Shown here: piece by piece, positions 7,102-24,273 of the stretch
Layout: each line of letters begins with the position of its first letter
How positions within the stretch are numbered: position 1 is the first letter of the stretch
Assembly (NCBI GenBank): GCA_944325085.1
Contig: CALUYT010000045.1
Coordinates: 1-60,635 of the forward strand
Length of the DNA stretch: 60,635 bases
Origin: Candidatus Gastranaerophilales bacterium
Lineage (GTDB): Bacteria > Cyanobacteriota > Vampirovibrionia > Gastranaerophilales > Gastranaerophilaceae
Reading direction: 5' to 3'
Position numbers and translations under genes: made by a program
Notes under the pieces: model-generated
Seen by the model: the letters and a program-made list of their open reading frames with translations, nothing else
What the model was told of the DNA's origin: nothing
The model's database searches: none

Positions 7102-7150
7102 GTAGTTTTAATATTTATTAACTTTGTTGTTCAGGATAAATTGTTTGAAG

Positions 7151-7165
7151 TATCATTATTATATG
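7151..7165 (+). promoter_or_regulatory. -10 box six bases before the murF ATG (leaderless candidate)
   Basis: TATCAT (7151-7156) is followed by exactly six bases and then ATG (7163), with no SD sequence. TTGTTC at 7127-7132 could be the -35 (18 spacing). The spacing would put the transcript start on or next to the start codon. Confidence 0.5.
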
Positions 7166-8503
7166 ATGTTTGAATGGGAAGATTTAAAAGAAGCTACAAA
7201 CGCTTCGTTGTTGAAAAATACACTGGATAGTAATAAAAATTTAAATATTTCAACAGATACAAGAACTATTAAAAATGGGGATATTTATTTACCTTTAAAA
7301 GGCGCATCGTTTGATGGCGAAGATTTTATTGATAAAGCCATTGAAGCTGGTGCTTGCGGATACTTTACAACTAAAGATTTGGTATTAGACAATGCTAAAA
7401 TTGTTTTTAAAGTACCAAATACTTTAGATGCGTATCTTAATATAGCAAAGTTTTATAGGGAAAAACTAAATCCTATAACTGTAGCTATCACTGGAAGTTC
7501 AGGGAAAACAACAACTAAAGAAATTGTATATTCTGTACTAAACCAAAAATTTAAAACTCAAAAAACATTTTCAAATCACAATAACGAAATAGGTTTCTGC
7601 CAAACCGTTCTTGGTATGGATAATGATACAGAAGCACTGATAGTAGAAATGGGAATGAGAGGTTTAGGGGAAATAGAACTTATATCAACTCACCTTGAAC
7701 CAAACTATGCAATAATTACAAACTCAGGTTCAGCACACATTGGAAGACTTGGAAGCCTTGATAATATTGCAAAAGCAAAATGCGAAATAACTACCGGATT
7801 AAAACCTAACGGAACTTTTATTGCTTTAAATCAAGATATTATAAAAAAGCATGTTAACTTTAACGGTGAAAAAATTTATTATTCATTAGAAAACGTAGAA
7901 ATAATATCAAAAGCTCCATCTTATTCAAAATTCAAATATAAAAATGAAATTTATGAACTAAATGTGGAAGGAGAATATAATATTGAAAATTCTCTTGCAG
8001 CTATTGAATTAGGTTTAAAACTTGGACTAACTTCTGATGAAATAAAAAAAGGGCTGGCTTCTTATAAACCAATAGAAAAAAGATGGGAAGTTGAACAAAT
8101 AAATAACTACAAATTTATAAATGATAGTTACAATGCGAATCCTGAATCTATGAAAGCTTCTGTAAAAACATTTATAGATTTATATGAAAAACCTGTTGTT
8201 GTACTTGGTAATATGGGAGAACTGGGAGATGATGAAGTTCTTTACCACAAACAGGTTGGACAATACTTAGCAAATTATAATAAAGACGTTAAGTACCTTT
8301 TAGTTGGAAATTTAGCAAAAGAAATAGGTCTGGAACTTGAGAAAAAAGGTTTTGATGTAAATTACTTTAATTCAAACAATGAAGTTTCATGTTACATTCT
8401 TGATAAATTGGATAACAGTTATACAATATTTCTAAAAGCTTCAAGATCTATGAAATTTGAAGAAATTCTTGAATACATAAAAAGAGGGATATGTAAATTA
8501 TGA
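7163..8503 (+). CDS. murF: UDP-MurNAc-tripeptide:D-Ala-D-Ala ligase MurF
   Basis: MurF adds D-Ala-D-Ala to the UDP-MurNAc-tripeptide in the cytoplasm. The 446-residue protein shows the ATP P-loop AITGSSGKTTTKE near residue 114. It also has NHNNEIGFCQTVL, the motif KRWEVEQINNYKFINDSYNANP and a typical C-terminal domain. I place the start at the ATG at 7163 (or 7166); an upstream TTG at 7124 has no support. It opens a tight wall-synthesis operon and overlaps mraY by 4 bases. Confidence 0.95.
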   Translation: MMFEWEDLKEATNASLLKNTLDSNKNLNISTDTRTIKNGDIYLPLKGASFDGEDFIDKAIEAGACGYFTTKDLVLDNAKIVFKVPNTLDAYLNIAKFYREKLNPITVAITGSSGKTTTKEIVYSVLNQKFKTQKTFSNHNNEIGFCQTVLGMDNDTEALIVEMGMRGLGEIELISTHLEPNYAIITNSGSAHIGRLGSLDNIAKAKCEITTGLKPNGTFIALNQDIIKKHVNFNGEKIYYSLENVEIISKAPSYSKFKYKNEIYELNVEGEYNIENSLAAIELGLKLGLTSDEIKKGLASYKPIEKRWEVEQINNYKFINDSYNANPESMKASVKTFIDLYEKPVVVLGNMGELGDDEVLYHKQVGQYLANYNKDVKYLLVGNLAKEIGLELEKKGFDVNYFNSNNEVSCYILDKLDNSYTIFLKASRSMKFEEILEYIKRGICKL

Positions 8504-20323: not shown

Positions 20324-21772
20324 TCAACCCAAAACATTTCGTATTATATTTTTTACATCACCGTAGCCAATATTACCGTCTTTTCGTTGACCTTTTAACA
20401 AGGTAGCTTGCTCAAAATTCATTGTACTTATTAAATAAGATACAAATTTATCTTTTTCATCAATTTTTACAGGCTTTTCAAAATATAATGTTTTAATATT
20501 TGAATTATTTTTTACATATTCATATATTGATGTTATCTCAGAACCTACGCAAATTAATTCATCTATTGGCAATTTTGAAATATACCTTGCAATTTTTAAA
20601 TAAGTCTGAGCTTCATATATACCTAAGGCTTTTATTCTTGTAATTACTAACCTTTTATACGGTGCATCTTTATATAATTTTATAAAACTTTCTATATTAG
20701 CTATCAAAGTATCATAACTCGGATTATTCGGACAATCAGTTATTAAAATTGCACCATTAAAATCATCAACAACCCAACGATTTCCAACAGCTTCATAAGA
20801 CATCAAACCACACCTGATATCATCAACACTAATTCCTAAATTTAAAGCCGCCTCAATAACTTTTATAGCATTGTTAATCTGATGAATTCCTGATACCGGA
20901 ATATAATATTTTTCATTTTTATATACAAATTCTGAACCTTCTTTATCGGTTTTTAGTAAAGTATAGCTACCATCTTCTATAAAATATTTTTGGCAGATGT
21001 AATTTTCAGAAGCTTCTTTTAATAATGGATCAGCATTTATAACTGCAACAGAATCTTTACTCATAGCAGATAACAATGTTATTTTTTCATTTGCTAAATT
21101 TTTTAATGTTAAATACTCACCAAGATTTTCGTTAGAAATTTTAGTTATAATCGCTAAATCAGGCATTATAAGTTCTGAAAAATATTTTAAATAGCCTCTA
21201 CCTTGACCGCTGCACTCAAACAAAAAATAATCAACATCAGAATCTACTTCTAAAAACTTATGAGCAATTCTAAATTTTACATTTGCTCCGGCTTCGCCTC
21301 TATAAACTTTGCTATTTTGTTTTAATATTCCATATAACATTTCTGTCGTTGAAGTTTTCCCGATAGAACCTGTAACTGAAATATATTTCGTGTTAGATGA
21401 CATTTTATTTATTCTGGTATAATTTGCCATATCAAACACGGCTTTTACTGTGTCTTGAACCATTATAATTAAATCAATATCATTTTTATATTTATTTATT
21501 AACTCAAGTAATTTATTATCCTTAAAAAAATGAGTTTCATCAAAAATAAAAAACCTAACGCCTGCTTTTATATAATTTTCAAGAACTGAGAATGTATCAA
21601 CAGGCGAAGCATTAATAACTAAATATATCGGAATAAAAATAGTATTATCATAATTATTTAAACGACTTGTAACACCACAAAGCTCATATAATTTATCAGA
21701 ATCAAATTTTGGACTTTGATAAAAAATATATCCTGCAGTATTTTCTAATATTTCTTTAACCGAATATTTCAC
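20324..21772 (-). CDS. Mur-ligase-like ATP-dependent ligase, intact P-loop
   Basis: This 482-residue protein resembles MurF over its length but is clearly a paralogue. It has the ATP P-loop SVTGSIGKTSTTEML near residue 137, ECSGQGRGYLKYF in the place of the metal region, and a C-terminal domain with GNRWVVDDF. Where MurF has NDSYNANP this protein has TDCPNNPSYD. Wall MurF is already encoded at 7163, so a different substrate is likely. The start is GTG at 21772 with GGAGG six bases upstream, inside the end of the preceding gene (17-base overlap). It ends the operon capA - degenerate ligase - this gene. Polyglutamate-type or peptide-modification chemistry is an inference from the CapA neighbour. 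Confidence 0.8.
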   Translation of the reverse strand: MKYSVKEILENTAGYIFYQSPKFDSDKLYELCGVTSRLNNYDNTIFIPIYLVINASPVDTFSVLENYIKAGVRFFIFDETHFFKDNKLLELINKYKNDIDLIIMVQDTVKAVFDMANYTRINKMSSNTKYISVTGSIGKTSTTEMLYGILKQNSKVYRGEAGANVKFRIAHKFLEVDSDVDYFLFECSGQGRGYLKYFSELIMPDLAIITKISNENLGEYLTLKNLANEKITLLSAMSKDSVAVINADPLLKEASENYICQKYFIEDGSYTLLKTDKEGSEFVYKNEKYYIPVSGIHQINNAIKVIEAALNLGISVDDIRCGLMSYEAVGNRWVVDDFNGAILITDCPNNPSYDTLIANIESFIKLYKDAPYKRLVITRIKALGIYEAQTYLKIARYISKLPIDELICVGSEITSIYEYVKNNSNIKTLYFEKPVKIDEKDKFVSYLISTMNFEQATLLKGQRKDGNIGYGDVKNIIRNVLG

Positions 21773-23096
21773 AGTCGTCCTCCGACAATAAGTTTATAGT
21801 ATTTTCATTTAACCTAGCGTAAATAACAGAATTATTTTTATCTCGCAAAGTTTTTAAATAATATTTCATCTGTTCAATTGAAGATTTGTTATCCAATGTA
21901 TATTTAATATTTTGAATATAAGTTGTTTTATTTATCCTGCGATACAAATGATTATAATTATTGATATTTATTAAAATCAAATTAGATGGGTTTAATTTTG
22001 CAATTTTTGTAAAAATTTCATCATAAACATTTGACTTAAAATTTCCCAAATTTTTAATATATTCAAACACAATAATTTTATTTTCATCAGAATACAAAGC
22101 TTCGAATTCATCTAAAGATTTCAATACTGAAGAAACTGATAAATCTTCATTATTCACTACAAAAATTTCATTATTACCATTTTTTGATAAACTATATAAA
22201 TTCAAACCAGATTCAAAATTACTAAAATCACAACTTGGCAAATTTTTATAATGTAAAAATGTATTAACTAAAGAAATATAAGGTGCTAAACATTTACTAT
22301 TATCGTCAGATAAAATTTCTGTAGCCCAATGAATTTTATCTTGATACTCATAAGAAATATAATCTGATATCAAATCATTATCTTGATTTAATATAATTGA
22401 TTTAACAAATTTTGGTTTTGCAAGAACCTTTAACAATTCATTTGATAAAGCTTCCATATCTTCATATAGATTCATATTGTAAATAGAAGATTTTGTAAAA
22501 ATAATATGATTATTAGAAAAATTTTGAACTATTGGCAATAATCCGACCTTTTCTGGTACCGCTTCCAACAATACAATTTCAGTATTCTCATCAGAAATCA
22601 ATATCGGCTCAAAAAGTTTTTGCCAACAAGTCCAACCTAATTCTGTCCCAACAACATTATATTTACCCTCTAAAGAATATTTTAAAAGTTCTGCAACCTT
22701 ATATGTCCCATTTGTTCCAACTACTGTAACAACTTCGCCACTATAATAAATAAATTTTTCTAAAATTATAGACAATGTTAAATTATAAATATTAGGAACA
22801 AATGCTAAAAATTCAATTTTGGAACTATTTTCCTTCATAAATGAATTAAACCAAACTTTATAAGCCTCAACTTTTAAGAGTTTTTCATTAAAAATTATAC
22901 CTTTACAATTTGGATTTTTAAAAACATTTTTCAAAGTTTCTTCAAATTTATCAGTTGGAACCAATGGAATAAAAATAAAATCTTTATCCATAGTCATAGA
23001 AGTTTCTGCCGTACATGAGAATTTATACTCTTTATCCTCATACAACATCTTAAATATTTGCATCTTAAATTTACTGATTATATTAGATATATTCAT
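21756..23096 (-). CDS. Degenerate Mur-ligase-like protein
   Basis: The 446 residues have the layout of a Mur ligase: an N-terminal domain, a central domain near 140, and a C-terminal half. The P-loop reads VVGTNGTYKVAELL, so the GKT/S of the ATP site is replaced by GTYK. This suggests loss of ATP binding or a rearranged loop. Similarity to known families is weak; I infer the fold from GTNG, TELGWTCWQ (compare the substrate region) and pairing with the intact paralogue downstream. It may be a structural partner of that protein. The ATG abuts the capA stop (TAAATG). Confidence 0.65.
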   Translation of the reverse strand: MNISNIISKFKMQIFKMLYEDKEYKFSCTAETSMTMDKDFIFIPLVPTDKFEETLKNVFKNPNCKGIIFNEKLLKVEAYKVWFNSFMKENSSKIEFLAFVPNIYNLTLSIILEKFIYYSGEVVTVVGTNGTYKVAELLKYSLEGKYNVVGTELGWTCWQKLFEPILISDENTEIVLLEAVPEKVGLLPIVQNFSNNHIIFTKSSIYNMNLYEDMEALSNELLKVLAKPKFVKSIILNQDNDLISDYISYEYQDKIHWATEILSDDNSKCLAPYISLVNTFLHYKNLPSCDFSNFESGLNLYSLSKNGNNEIFVVNNEDLSVSSVLKSLDEFEALYSDENKIIVFEYIKNLGNFKSNVYDEIFTKIAKLNPSNLILININNYNHLYRRINKTTYIQNIKYTLDNKSSIEQMKYYLKTLRDKNNSVIYARLNENTINLLSEDDCEIFG

Positions 23097-24152
23097 TTAT
23101 AAAATTCCAACACTAATAATATTGTCACTATTATTTATTATAGATTTTTCTCTAAGCTCTTGAGCATCCTCAAATAACAAATCTAAAAATTCATCAAGCT
23201 CAGAATCTAATATTGGTCTTGTCTGCGGTGAATATGATTGATTATCCATATAAATAGGATAAATATTCACTTTTGGAATAATATTACCTGAAATATTTTC
23301 AAACCTTAATTCAGCACCCATATTATAAGGAAAAACTTTTCCGCCAAAATTAGCCGGAAATACAAAATTTCCAAGACCATATATAATAAGTTTACCGTTA
23401 TATATTTCTACAGAATTCATCATATGAGGACCATGTCCAAAAACATAATCTGCACCGGCATCAATAAAACTATGTGCATAATCTATCTGAAGTTGAGTTT
23501 TTTTCATCAAATCAAAACCAAAATGAGGAAACACTACAACAACAGATTCTTTATCAGAATCCTTAATAGCACGTATCGATTCATTTAAAGTATCAGGAGT
23601 TAATAAAAATACTCCTTCTTTATTTTGAGACGCGTAAAACTTAAAATCTTCATCATAATCTTTTCTATATTTATATCCACCAAAGACATACAAATTAAGT
23701 TTTTTATCACCAACAACTATCTGCCTTAATAAAGGTAAACTTGCATTTCTAAGATTTAATCCGGCCCCAAATGTACAAATATTTGCGCAAGATAAAGAAG
23801 TTATAGTATCTTCTAACCCTTTTTTATCATAATCCATTATATGATTGTTACCTAAAGACACTGCTTTAATATTATTCTTTTGTAACAAGTCAATAAGCTT
23901 ATCCGCATCTGACCAATGCAAAACTGTTTTCTTATGCGCCAAAGTTGATGTATTTTTTAATGCCAAAGTTGTTTCTAAATTGACAATATTAAAATCAAAA
24001 GATTTTAATATTGGAGAAACTTTTTCTAACAAATAATCATAACCTTTTTGTCTTAATACATTTATATGTTCGGTTACATCATATTTTGCCTGGTAATTTT
24101 CACCACTCGTAAAATCACCCCAAAAACCAATACTATAACTGTTACTCATCAT
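23097..24152 (-). CDS. CapA-family metallophosphoesterase-like protein
   Basis: This 351-residue protein matches the PGA_cap/CapA family. Motifs in order are GFWGDFTSGE, FNIVNLETTLA, VSLGNNHIMDYDKKGLEDTI, TFGAGLNLRNA, VVFPHFGFD and GHGPHMMNSVEIYNGKLIIY. CapA/PgsA proteins take part in poly-gamma-glutamate synthesis or export in Bacillus; other members have no known role. Unlike PgsA it has no N-terminal membrane anchor or signal peptide. It is first gene of a three-gene operon with two Mur-ligase-like proteins, which recalls the PgsB (Mur-ligase-like) / PgsA pair. A promoter lies at 24181-24209. Confidence 0.85.
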   Translation of the reverse strand: MMSNSYSIGFWGDFTSGENYQAKYDVTEHINVLRQKGYDYLLEKVSPILKSFDFNIVNLETTLALKNTSTLAHKKTVLHWSDADKLIDLLQKNNIKAVSLGNNHIMDYDKKGLEDTITSLSCANICTFGAGLNLRNASLPLLRQIVVGDKKLNLYVFGGYKYRKDYDEDFKFYASQNKEGVFLLTPDTLNESIRAIKDSDKESVVVVFPHFGFDLMKKTQLQIDYAHSFIDAGADYVFGHGPHMMNSVEIYNGKLIIYGLGNFVFPANFGGKVFPYNMGAELRFENISGNIIPKVNIYPIYMDNQSYSPQTRPILDSELDEFLDLLFEDAQELREKSIINNSDNIISVGIL

Positions 24153-24220: not shown

Positions 24221-24251
24221 AAAAAAGACTGAATTAAAAATTCAGTCTTTT
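24221..24251. terminator. Terminator between floT and capA
   Basis: GACTGAA / TTCAGTC (24227-24233 with 24241-24247) extends by A/T pairs. On the minus strand it is followed by six T, ending rel-nfeD-floT. It has T on both sides and could act in either direction. Confidence 0.85.
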
Positions 24252-24273
24252 CATTTTAAATTATATAACCCTA

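Follow-up and report, generated by a model that had tools for sequence, protein, structure and literature searches.

Why should a bacterium that carries a normal murF also keep a second MurF-like ligase gene, coupled both to a gene for a ligase-like protein with a broken P-loop and to a capA gene? The question is raised by three genes in contig CALUYT010000045.1 (assembly GCA_944325085.1) of a Candidatus Gastranaerophilales bacterium, analysed over its whole length of 60,635 nucleotides and called the window here; it is contig C45 of a 1.89 Mb, 65-contig genome that is 96% complete. The genes follow one another in the same direction on the minus strand: capA (23097..24152; 351 amino acids (aa)), a pseudo-MurF gene (21756..23096; 446 aa) and a gene for a MurF-like amide ligase (20324..21772; 482 aa, GTG start). 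The capA stop abuts the ATG of the pseudo-ligase gene (spacing 0 bp) and the pseudo-ligase and ligase genes overlap by 17 bases (21756..21772, minus strand; spacing -17 bp), so the tight coupling reported in a first-pass annotation, made from the DNA letters, is borne out by the open reading frame coordinates; the overlap likely reflects translational coupling. The genuine murF, also placed elsewhere in the window by that annotation, is at 7124-8503 on the plus strand. Genome-wide, seven Mur-ligase middle domains score above cut-off, named by reading as MurC, MurD, MurE, MurF, MurT, FolC and the operon ligase, and there is one CapA domain. We find that the operon is a CapA/Mur-ligase arrangement with an unusual conserved pseudo-ligase, and that it is real and conserved.

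The middle protein matched no Pfam family and gave no match to the MurF family model TIGR01143 (cut-off 288.6), and its sequence profile alone retrieves MurF from the PDB at 2.9e-11. An AlphaFold2 (AF2) model built from seven homologues (predicted local distance difference test (pLDDT) 82.1) has the full MurF fold, superposing on Acinetobacter baumannii MurF 4qf5 with a VIA Z of 23.8 and a root-mean-square deviation (rmsd) of 5.4 over 405 residues, and the top ten Foldseek matches are all MurF, the first being MurF under another title. The Mur-ligase-like nature proposed for the 21756 product thus survives structure prediction. The broken P-loop GTNGTYK (residues 127-133; 22698..22718, minus strand) was read correctly, but the damage is not confined to it. 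When aligned with the genome's own Mur ligases, the pseudo-ligases also lack the Mg-loop His, the carbamoylated Lys, HNxxN and the C-domain R/D, in addition to the P-loop Lys, while the Mg-binding Glu is gone in some of them only; none of the nine homologues described below has a P-loop GKT, the GKT string of genome G181 sitting outside the P-loop. No working motif set of MurF is therefore retained. At the same time, the reading frame is open in all nine genomes (390-477 codons), the pseudo-ligase-specific motifs WQxxx[DE]P and CKG are kept in all nine, and the ratio of non-synonymous to synonymous substitution rates (dN/dS, NG86) is 0.30 for the pair G000/G017 and 0.11 for G219/G261, values that are rough because dS exceeds 1. 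Given the MurF fold, the lost motifs, the conserved residues of its own and the low dN/dS, the middle protein is a pseudo-ligase maintained by purifying selection.

The three genes also travel together. A search of 59 relatives returned one true pseudo-ligase homologue beyond the window's own (G017), and 7 of 286 genomes of the order, the window's included, carry one. Across 383 genomes of the family, the pseudo-ligase profile gave nine strong matches (below 1e-30) besides the partner ligases. A capA gene directly precedes the pseudo-ligase in 9/9, at a spacing of -32 to +18, and a ligase with an intact P-loop directly follows it in 8/9, so that the pairing of a catalytic and a pseudo Mur ligase with CapA, suggested at first pass, recurs in the same order, beyond what chance would give. 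Pseudo-ligase/ligase spacing is -17 at four of the nine loci, -16 at two, -1 at two and +7 at one. MurT-, MurC- and FolC-like matches were discarded on reading. Fifteen weak matches, in which residues 57-136 of a protein some 660-700 aa long were hit, we put down to chance; L010, the only one read, is BamA-like by eye. A further Mur-like protein (G181:C4:14561-15673) matches the pseudo-ligase profile at 4.6e-18.

In a first tree, built without G177_lig, FolC and L096_ligB, the pseudo-ligases (support 100/100) fall into one clade and the operon ligases (99/96) into another, the internal branching of the two matches, and the two clades jointly split from MurF (96/91). In a second tree with other rows, additionally omitting MurC, MurD, MurT and G177_pseudo, the pseudo-ligase clade is not paired with the ligase clade. 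Judged by its separate clades with matching branching, the pair is old, predating the four genera of the order-wide search.

The third protein had been described as intact, and part of that description holds. It carries the Mur_ligase_M domain (PF08245, 1.1e-23), and its AF2 model (pLDDT 85.5) superposes on 4qf5 with a VIA Z of 35.9 and an rmsd of 2.7 over 441 residues. The P-loop GSIGKTST (residues 135-142; 21347..21370, minus strand) is as reported, and alignment with the genome's own MurF shows P-loop Lys139, Glu186, Lys230, Asn301, Arg332 and Asp346 to be kept; the protein thus resembles MurF in its fold, P-loop, Mg-binding Glu and carbamoyl-lysine position. It nevertheless scores 166.8 against the TIGR01143 cut-off of 288.6. 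The altered signature, TDCPNNPSYD in place of canonical NDSYNANP (DCPNNP being residues 346-351; 20720..20737, minus strand), is likewise confirmed and has a similar counterpart, DCPSNPS, in a planctomycete ligase at locus L055. The operon ligases have not kept the N-domain motif TDxR of the genome's own MurF, which we take to be uridine-binding, and its loss only suggests an acceptor other than UDP-MurNAc-tripeptide. What does not hold is that the protein is intact throughout, since the conserved Mg-binding His of the AHxxxxGS loop has been lost: here Asn216 (21125..21127, minus strand) occupies the position, which across eight operon ligases is Asn in six, Cys in one and His in one. This His is described as binding Mg at the acceptor carboxylate, and MurT, which likewise lacks it, as active together with GatD (PMC6085368). 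With the His and TDxR changes taken together, the operon ligase is probably active, on another acceptor than that of MurF.

CapA carries the PGA_cap domain (PF09587; 172 bits, 1.7e-50 in the Pfam scan), and no membrane anchor was found in it, the highest 19-residue mean hydropathy being 1.07, as the first-pass annotation had claimed; it is a predicted cytoplasmic metalloenzyme. Asp13, Glu60, Asn103, His104, Asp107, His210, His240 and His243 are invariant in an alignment of nine sequences. Its sole solved relative by sequence is the lasso-peptide epimerase MslH, of CapA/calcineurin fold, for which the catalytic dyads D11/H295 and H88/D91 are reported (PMC10406935). In our alignment CapA D13/H243 and H104/D107 occupy these dyad positions; over the MslH dyads and Ca ligands together, D13, E60, N103, H104, D107, H210 and H243 are present in CapA, with the counterpart of MslH H261 ambiguous and the residues probably family-wide.

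To place the operon among related arrangements, we read the gene neighbourhoods of CapA and ligase relatives; these readings exclude L175 (the G110 CapA), L176 (the G103 CapA) and the toroid loci L184, L186 and L188. In the survey of ligase relatives (80 loci), neighbours were listed for nine, six are Gastranaerophilales loci already seen, and the rest of the survey is mostly Bifidobacterium, taken as MurF. In G327 the order is an alpha/alpha-toroid protein, CapA, the pseudo-ligase, a ligase with canonical NEAFNAN and a VanY-type D,D-carboxypeptidase. The best foreign ligase match, L055 from Planctomycetota (28% identity, 239 bits to ligase profile A2), is fused to the same toroid protein (29% identity over 672 columns), and another contig of the same genome (L195:1132-9379) encodes in line Ddl, Alr, CapA, a Mur ligase with P-loop GTQGKT and a toroid protein. 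We considered that active-looking L195 ligase, which follows CapA, as a pseudo-ligase orthologue; this was not supported, as profile A1 misses it and only its position is in common. In Oscillospiraceae, L093 encodes a fusion of a MurF-like ligase with peptidase S11 and hexapeptide repeats, followed by CapA fused to a MurF-like ligase, and L096 encodes ATPgrasp_ST, octopine dehydrogenase, a TupA-like ATP-grasp protein, a UDP-sugar-dehydrogenase-like protein (by reading), CapA, a MurF-like ligase, Ddl and VanY. With their CapA and MurF-like ligases, LRR_5, TupA-like ATP-grasp, octopine dehydrogenase, Ddl and VanY or S11, L093 and L096 resemble an amino-acid-decorated surface-polymer cluster. The L195, L093 and L096 clusters are like the operon in that CapA adjoins one or two Mur-type ligases, and unlike it in that these ligases keep the P-loop and that additional components (D-Ala, toroid, ATP-grasp or LRR) are present. 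D-Ala-D-Ala-type enzymes occur in four of eight informative contexts: L157 (VanY), L195 (Ddl and Alr), L093 (S11) and L096 (Ddl, VanY). These neighbourhoods favour chemistry of the D-Ala-D-Ala type over polyglutamate.

The toroid protein, a cytoplasmic protein with weak C5-epim_C/LANC_like domain matches, is encoded in the window's genome away from the operon (C47:45708-47576, equal to L183:9703-11577), among neighbours without relevance to it. The gene is found in 117 of the 383 family genomes and in all 14 that have this CapA. The chance of such co-occurrence is 3.5e-8 overall, or 2.4e-5 when stratified by genus, the genus sizes being lower bounds from listed rows, apart from the complete count of 45 in the window's genus, and relatedness within genera being ignored; we would like to note that the toroid was picked for this test after being seen beside CapA in G327. 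Our search found no solved structural relative of the toroid. By eye, the planctomycete CapA had seemed to have the toroid N-domain as its C-terminal part; BLAST did not support this, and the idea was dropped.

We tentatively read the operon as a cytoplasmic three-gene amide-ligation module, in which a ligase/pseudo-ligase complex works with CapA on a non-murein acceptor; this is possible, at somewhat under even chances. It draws on the conserved gene order, the two clades and their matching branching, the selection that maintains the pseudo-ligase, the MurF folds, the motifs kept by the ligase beside its lost TDxR, the D-Ala enzymes in four of eight contexts and the co-occurrence of CapA with the toroid. 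The third protein would be a MurF-derived ATP-dependent carboxylate-amine ligase that uses ATP to activate a carboxylate and joins to a non-UDP acceptor an amine, probably from a residue of D-Ala type. Its non-catalytic MurF-fold partner would be the pseudo-ligase, most likely as an obligate subunit, which either holds the acceptor or makes the ligase complete, and CapA would be a calcineurin-fold metalloenzyme epimerising or hydrolysing the acceptor or the product. The acceptor would be something other than UDP-MurNAc-peptide, the added group would most likely be D-Ala-D-Ala or another D-residue, and the stand-alone toroid protein may serve the same pathway. Several observations weigh against such a module. 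Activity of the ligase is not certain, with the Mg-binding His gone in 7/8; in G177 the third gene is a 257-aa remnant without P-loop (L158:8162-8935) with CapA and the pseudo-ligase still present; the toroid occurs without this CapA in 103 family genomes; no CapA or Mur ligase lies near the toroid at any of nine further loci from the planctomycete's phylum, as judged on fetched stretches, of which only 5/9 matched the toroid by blastp at 1e-3; and D-Ala enzymes were not found in the other four informative contexts (L055, L031, L032 and L033).

The most serious competitor, though we consider it unlikely, is that CapA, as an MslH-like epimerase, is the core of a peptide or small-molecule maturation system whose partner varies by lineage, here the two Mur-like proteins. 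It draws on the sister species G001 and G035 (L031:7546-9423 and L032:4568-6466), where a CapA 56-57% identical to that of the window directly precedes a radical S-adenosylmethionine (SAM) and hexapeptide-acyltransferase protein, and on G005 (L033:8113-11094), where the two are fused; MslH as the only solved relative, with both dyad positions filled, is consistent with it too. The dyad residues, which we assume to be general to CapA and metallophosphoesterase families, we count against it, and CapA scores 57.3 bits against a cut-off of 700 with the NCBIfam MslH model, is adjoined by ligases, and has no lasso genes seen in its operon, the precursor peptide not having been looked for. Less probable still is carboxylate activation in the manner of the lipid II amidotransferase MurT/GatD, by which the ligase would make an acyl phosphate, an amine such as ammonia or an amino sugar would come from elsewhere, and the pseudo-ligase would fill a GatD-like role. 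The lost His and the (here predicted) partner protein are shared with MurT, but GatD is a glutaminase and the operon partner a pseudo-Mur ligase; moreover, the ligase scores 34.4 against the MurT model NF045635 (cut-off 800), no glutaminase or GatD-like gene was found in the operon, and the genome has its own MurT.

That the middle gene is a functionless, decaying duplicate is largely refuted, and we give it little credence. Decay would account for the faster change of the pseudo-ligase, which is 56% identical between G000 and G017 where its neighbours are 74-77% identical, and has a parallel in the third gene of G177; it is opposed by the open frames, the low dN/dS, the invariant motifs, monophyly and the conserved overlap with the ligase gene. 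The least credible explanation is poly-gamma-glutamate synthesis of the PgsBCA/CapBCA type. In Bacillus, this synthesis pairs a Mur-ligase-like PgsB with CapA/PgsA, and a CapA domain adjoins a Mur-type ligase in the operon as well. It is nevertheless unlikely because CapA lacks an anchor and the PgsC/CapC family (PF14102) was not found in the 96% complete genome, in a search that found the B. subtilis control; the ligase is furthermore MurF-derived and accompanied by an additional pseudo-ligase. The distinction from the Bacillus system drawn by the first-pass annotation therefore stands, whereas the different polymer or peptide-tagging pathway that it proposed is a candidate reading only, so that its interpretation is borne out in part.

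Mur ligases are standard examples of drug targets. Should the proposed ligase and pseudo-ligase work as a complex, they would show a way in which a cell-wall ligase can be adapted to a new acceptor. The literature searched held no description of the operon, and none of a dead Mur ligase that is conserved under selection and coupled to a live partner. A bolder reading, which we consider doubtful, is that the two form the first obligate live/dead Mur-ligase heteromer, as the centre of a non-murein pathway of D-amino-acid ligation (with CapA, the toroid and D-Ala-D-Ala supply) that would yield an undescribed D-amino-acid conjugate in gut Cyanobacteriota, a planctomycete and Oscillospiraceae, with differing partners. 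For gut and environmental bacteria, the CapA-Mur-Ddl-Alr-toroid neighbourhood offers a concrete and testable lead to a D-amino-acid product. A plastid RNA polymerase chain of Mur type (8r6s_Q), presumably MurE-like, matches both the ligase and the pseudo-ligase models, which fits non-enzymatic uses of the Mur fold. A parallel is trypanosomatid deoxyhypusine synthase, reported to be catalytically impaired and to need its dead paralogue (PMC3663545).

Some minor observations complete the description. The radical-SAM/hexapeptide-acyltransferase protein with CapA may constitute a putative modification pathway of its own, and a weak CapA match was seen at L034 (G044). PADLOC assigned no defence family to CapA, the two ligase proteins or the toroid, and the radical-SAM protein has matches to viperin models alone, covering its radical-SAM region. 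No ligase relatives were found in viral contigs. A consensus scan placed a terminator-like hairpin of 14 pairs (24222..24252, minus strand) in the interval that divides capA from the flotillin-like gene upstream of it, which suggests that capA, the pseudo-ligase gene and the ligase gene probably share a separate transcript.

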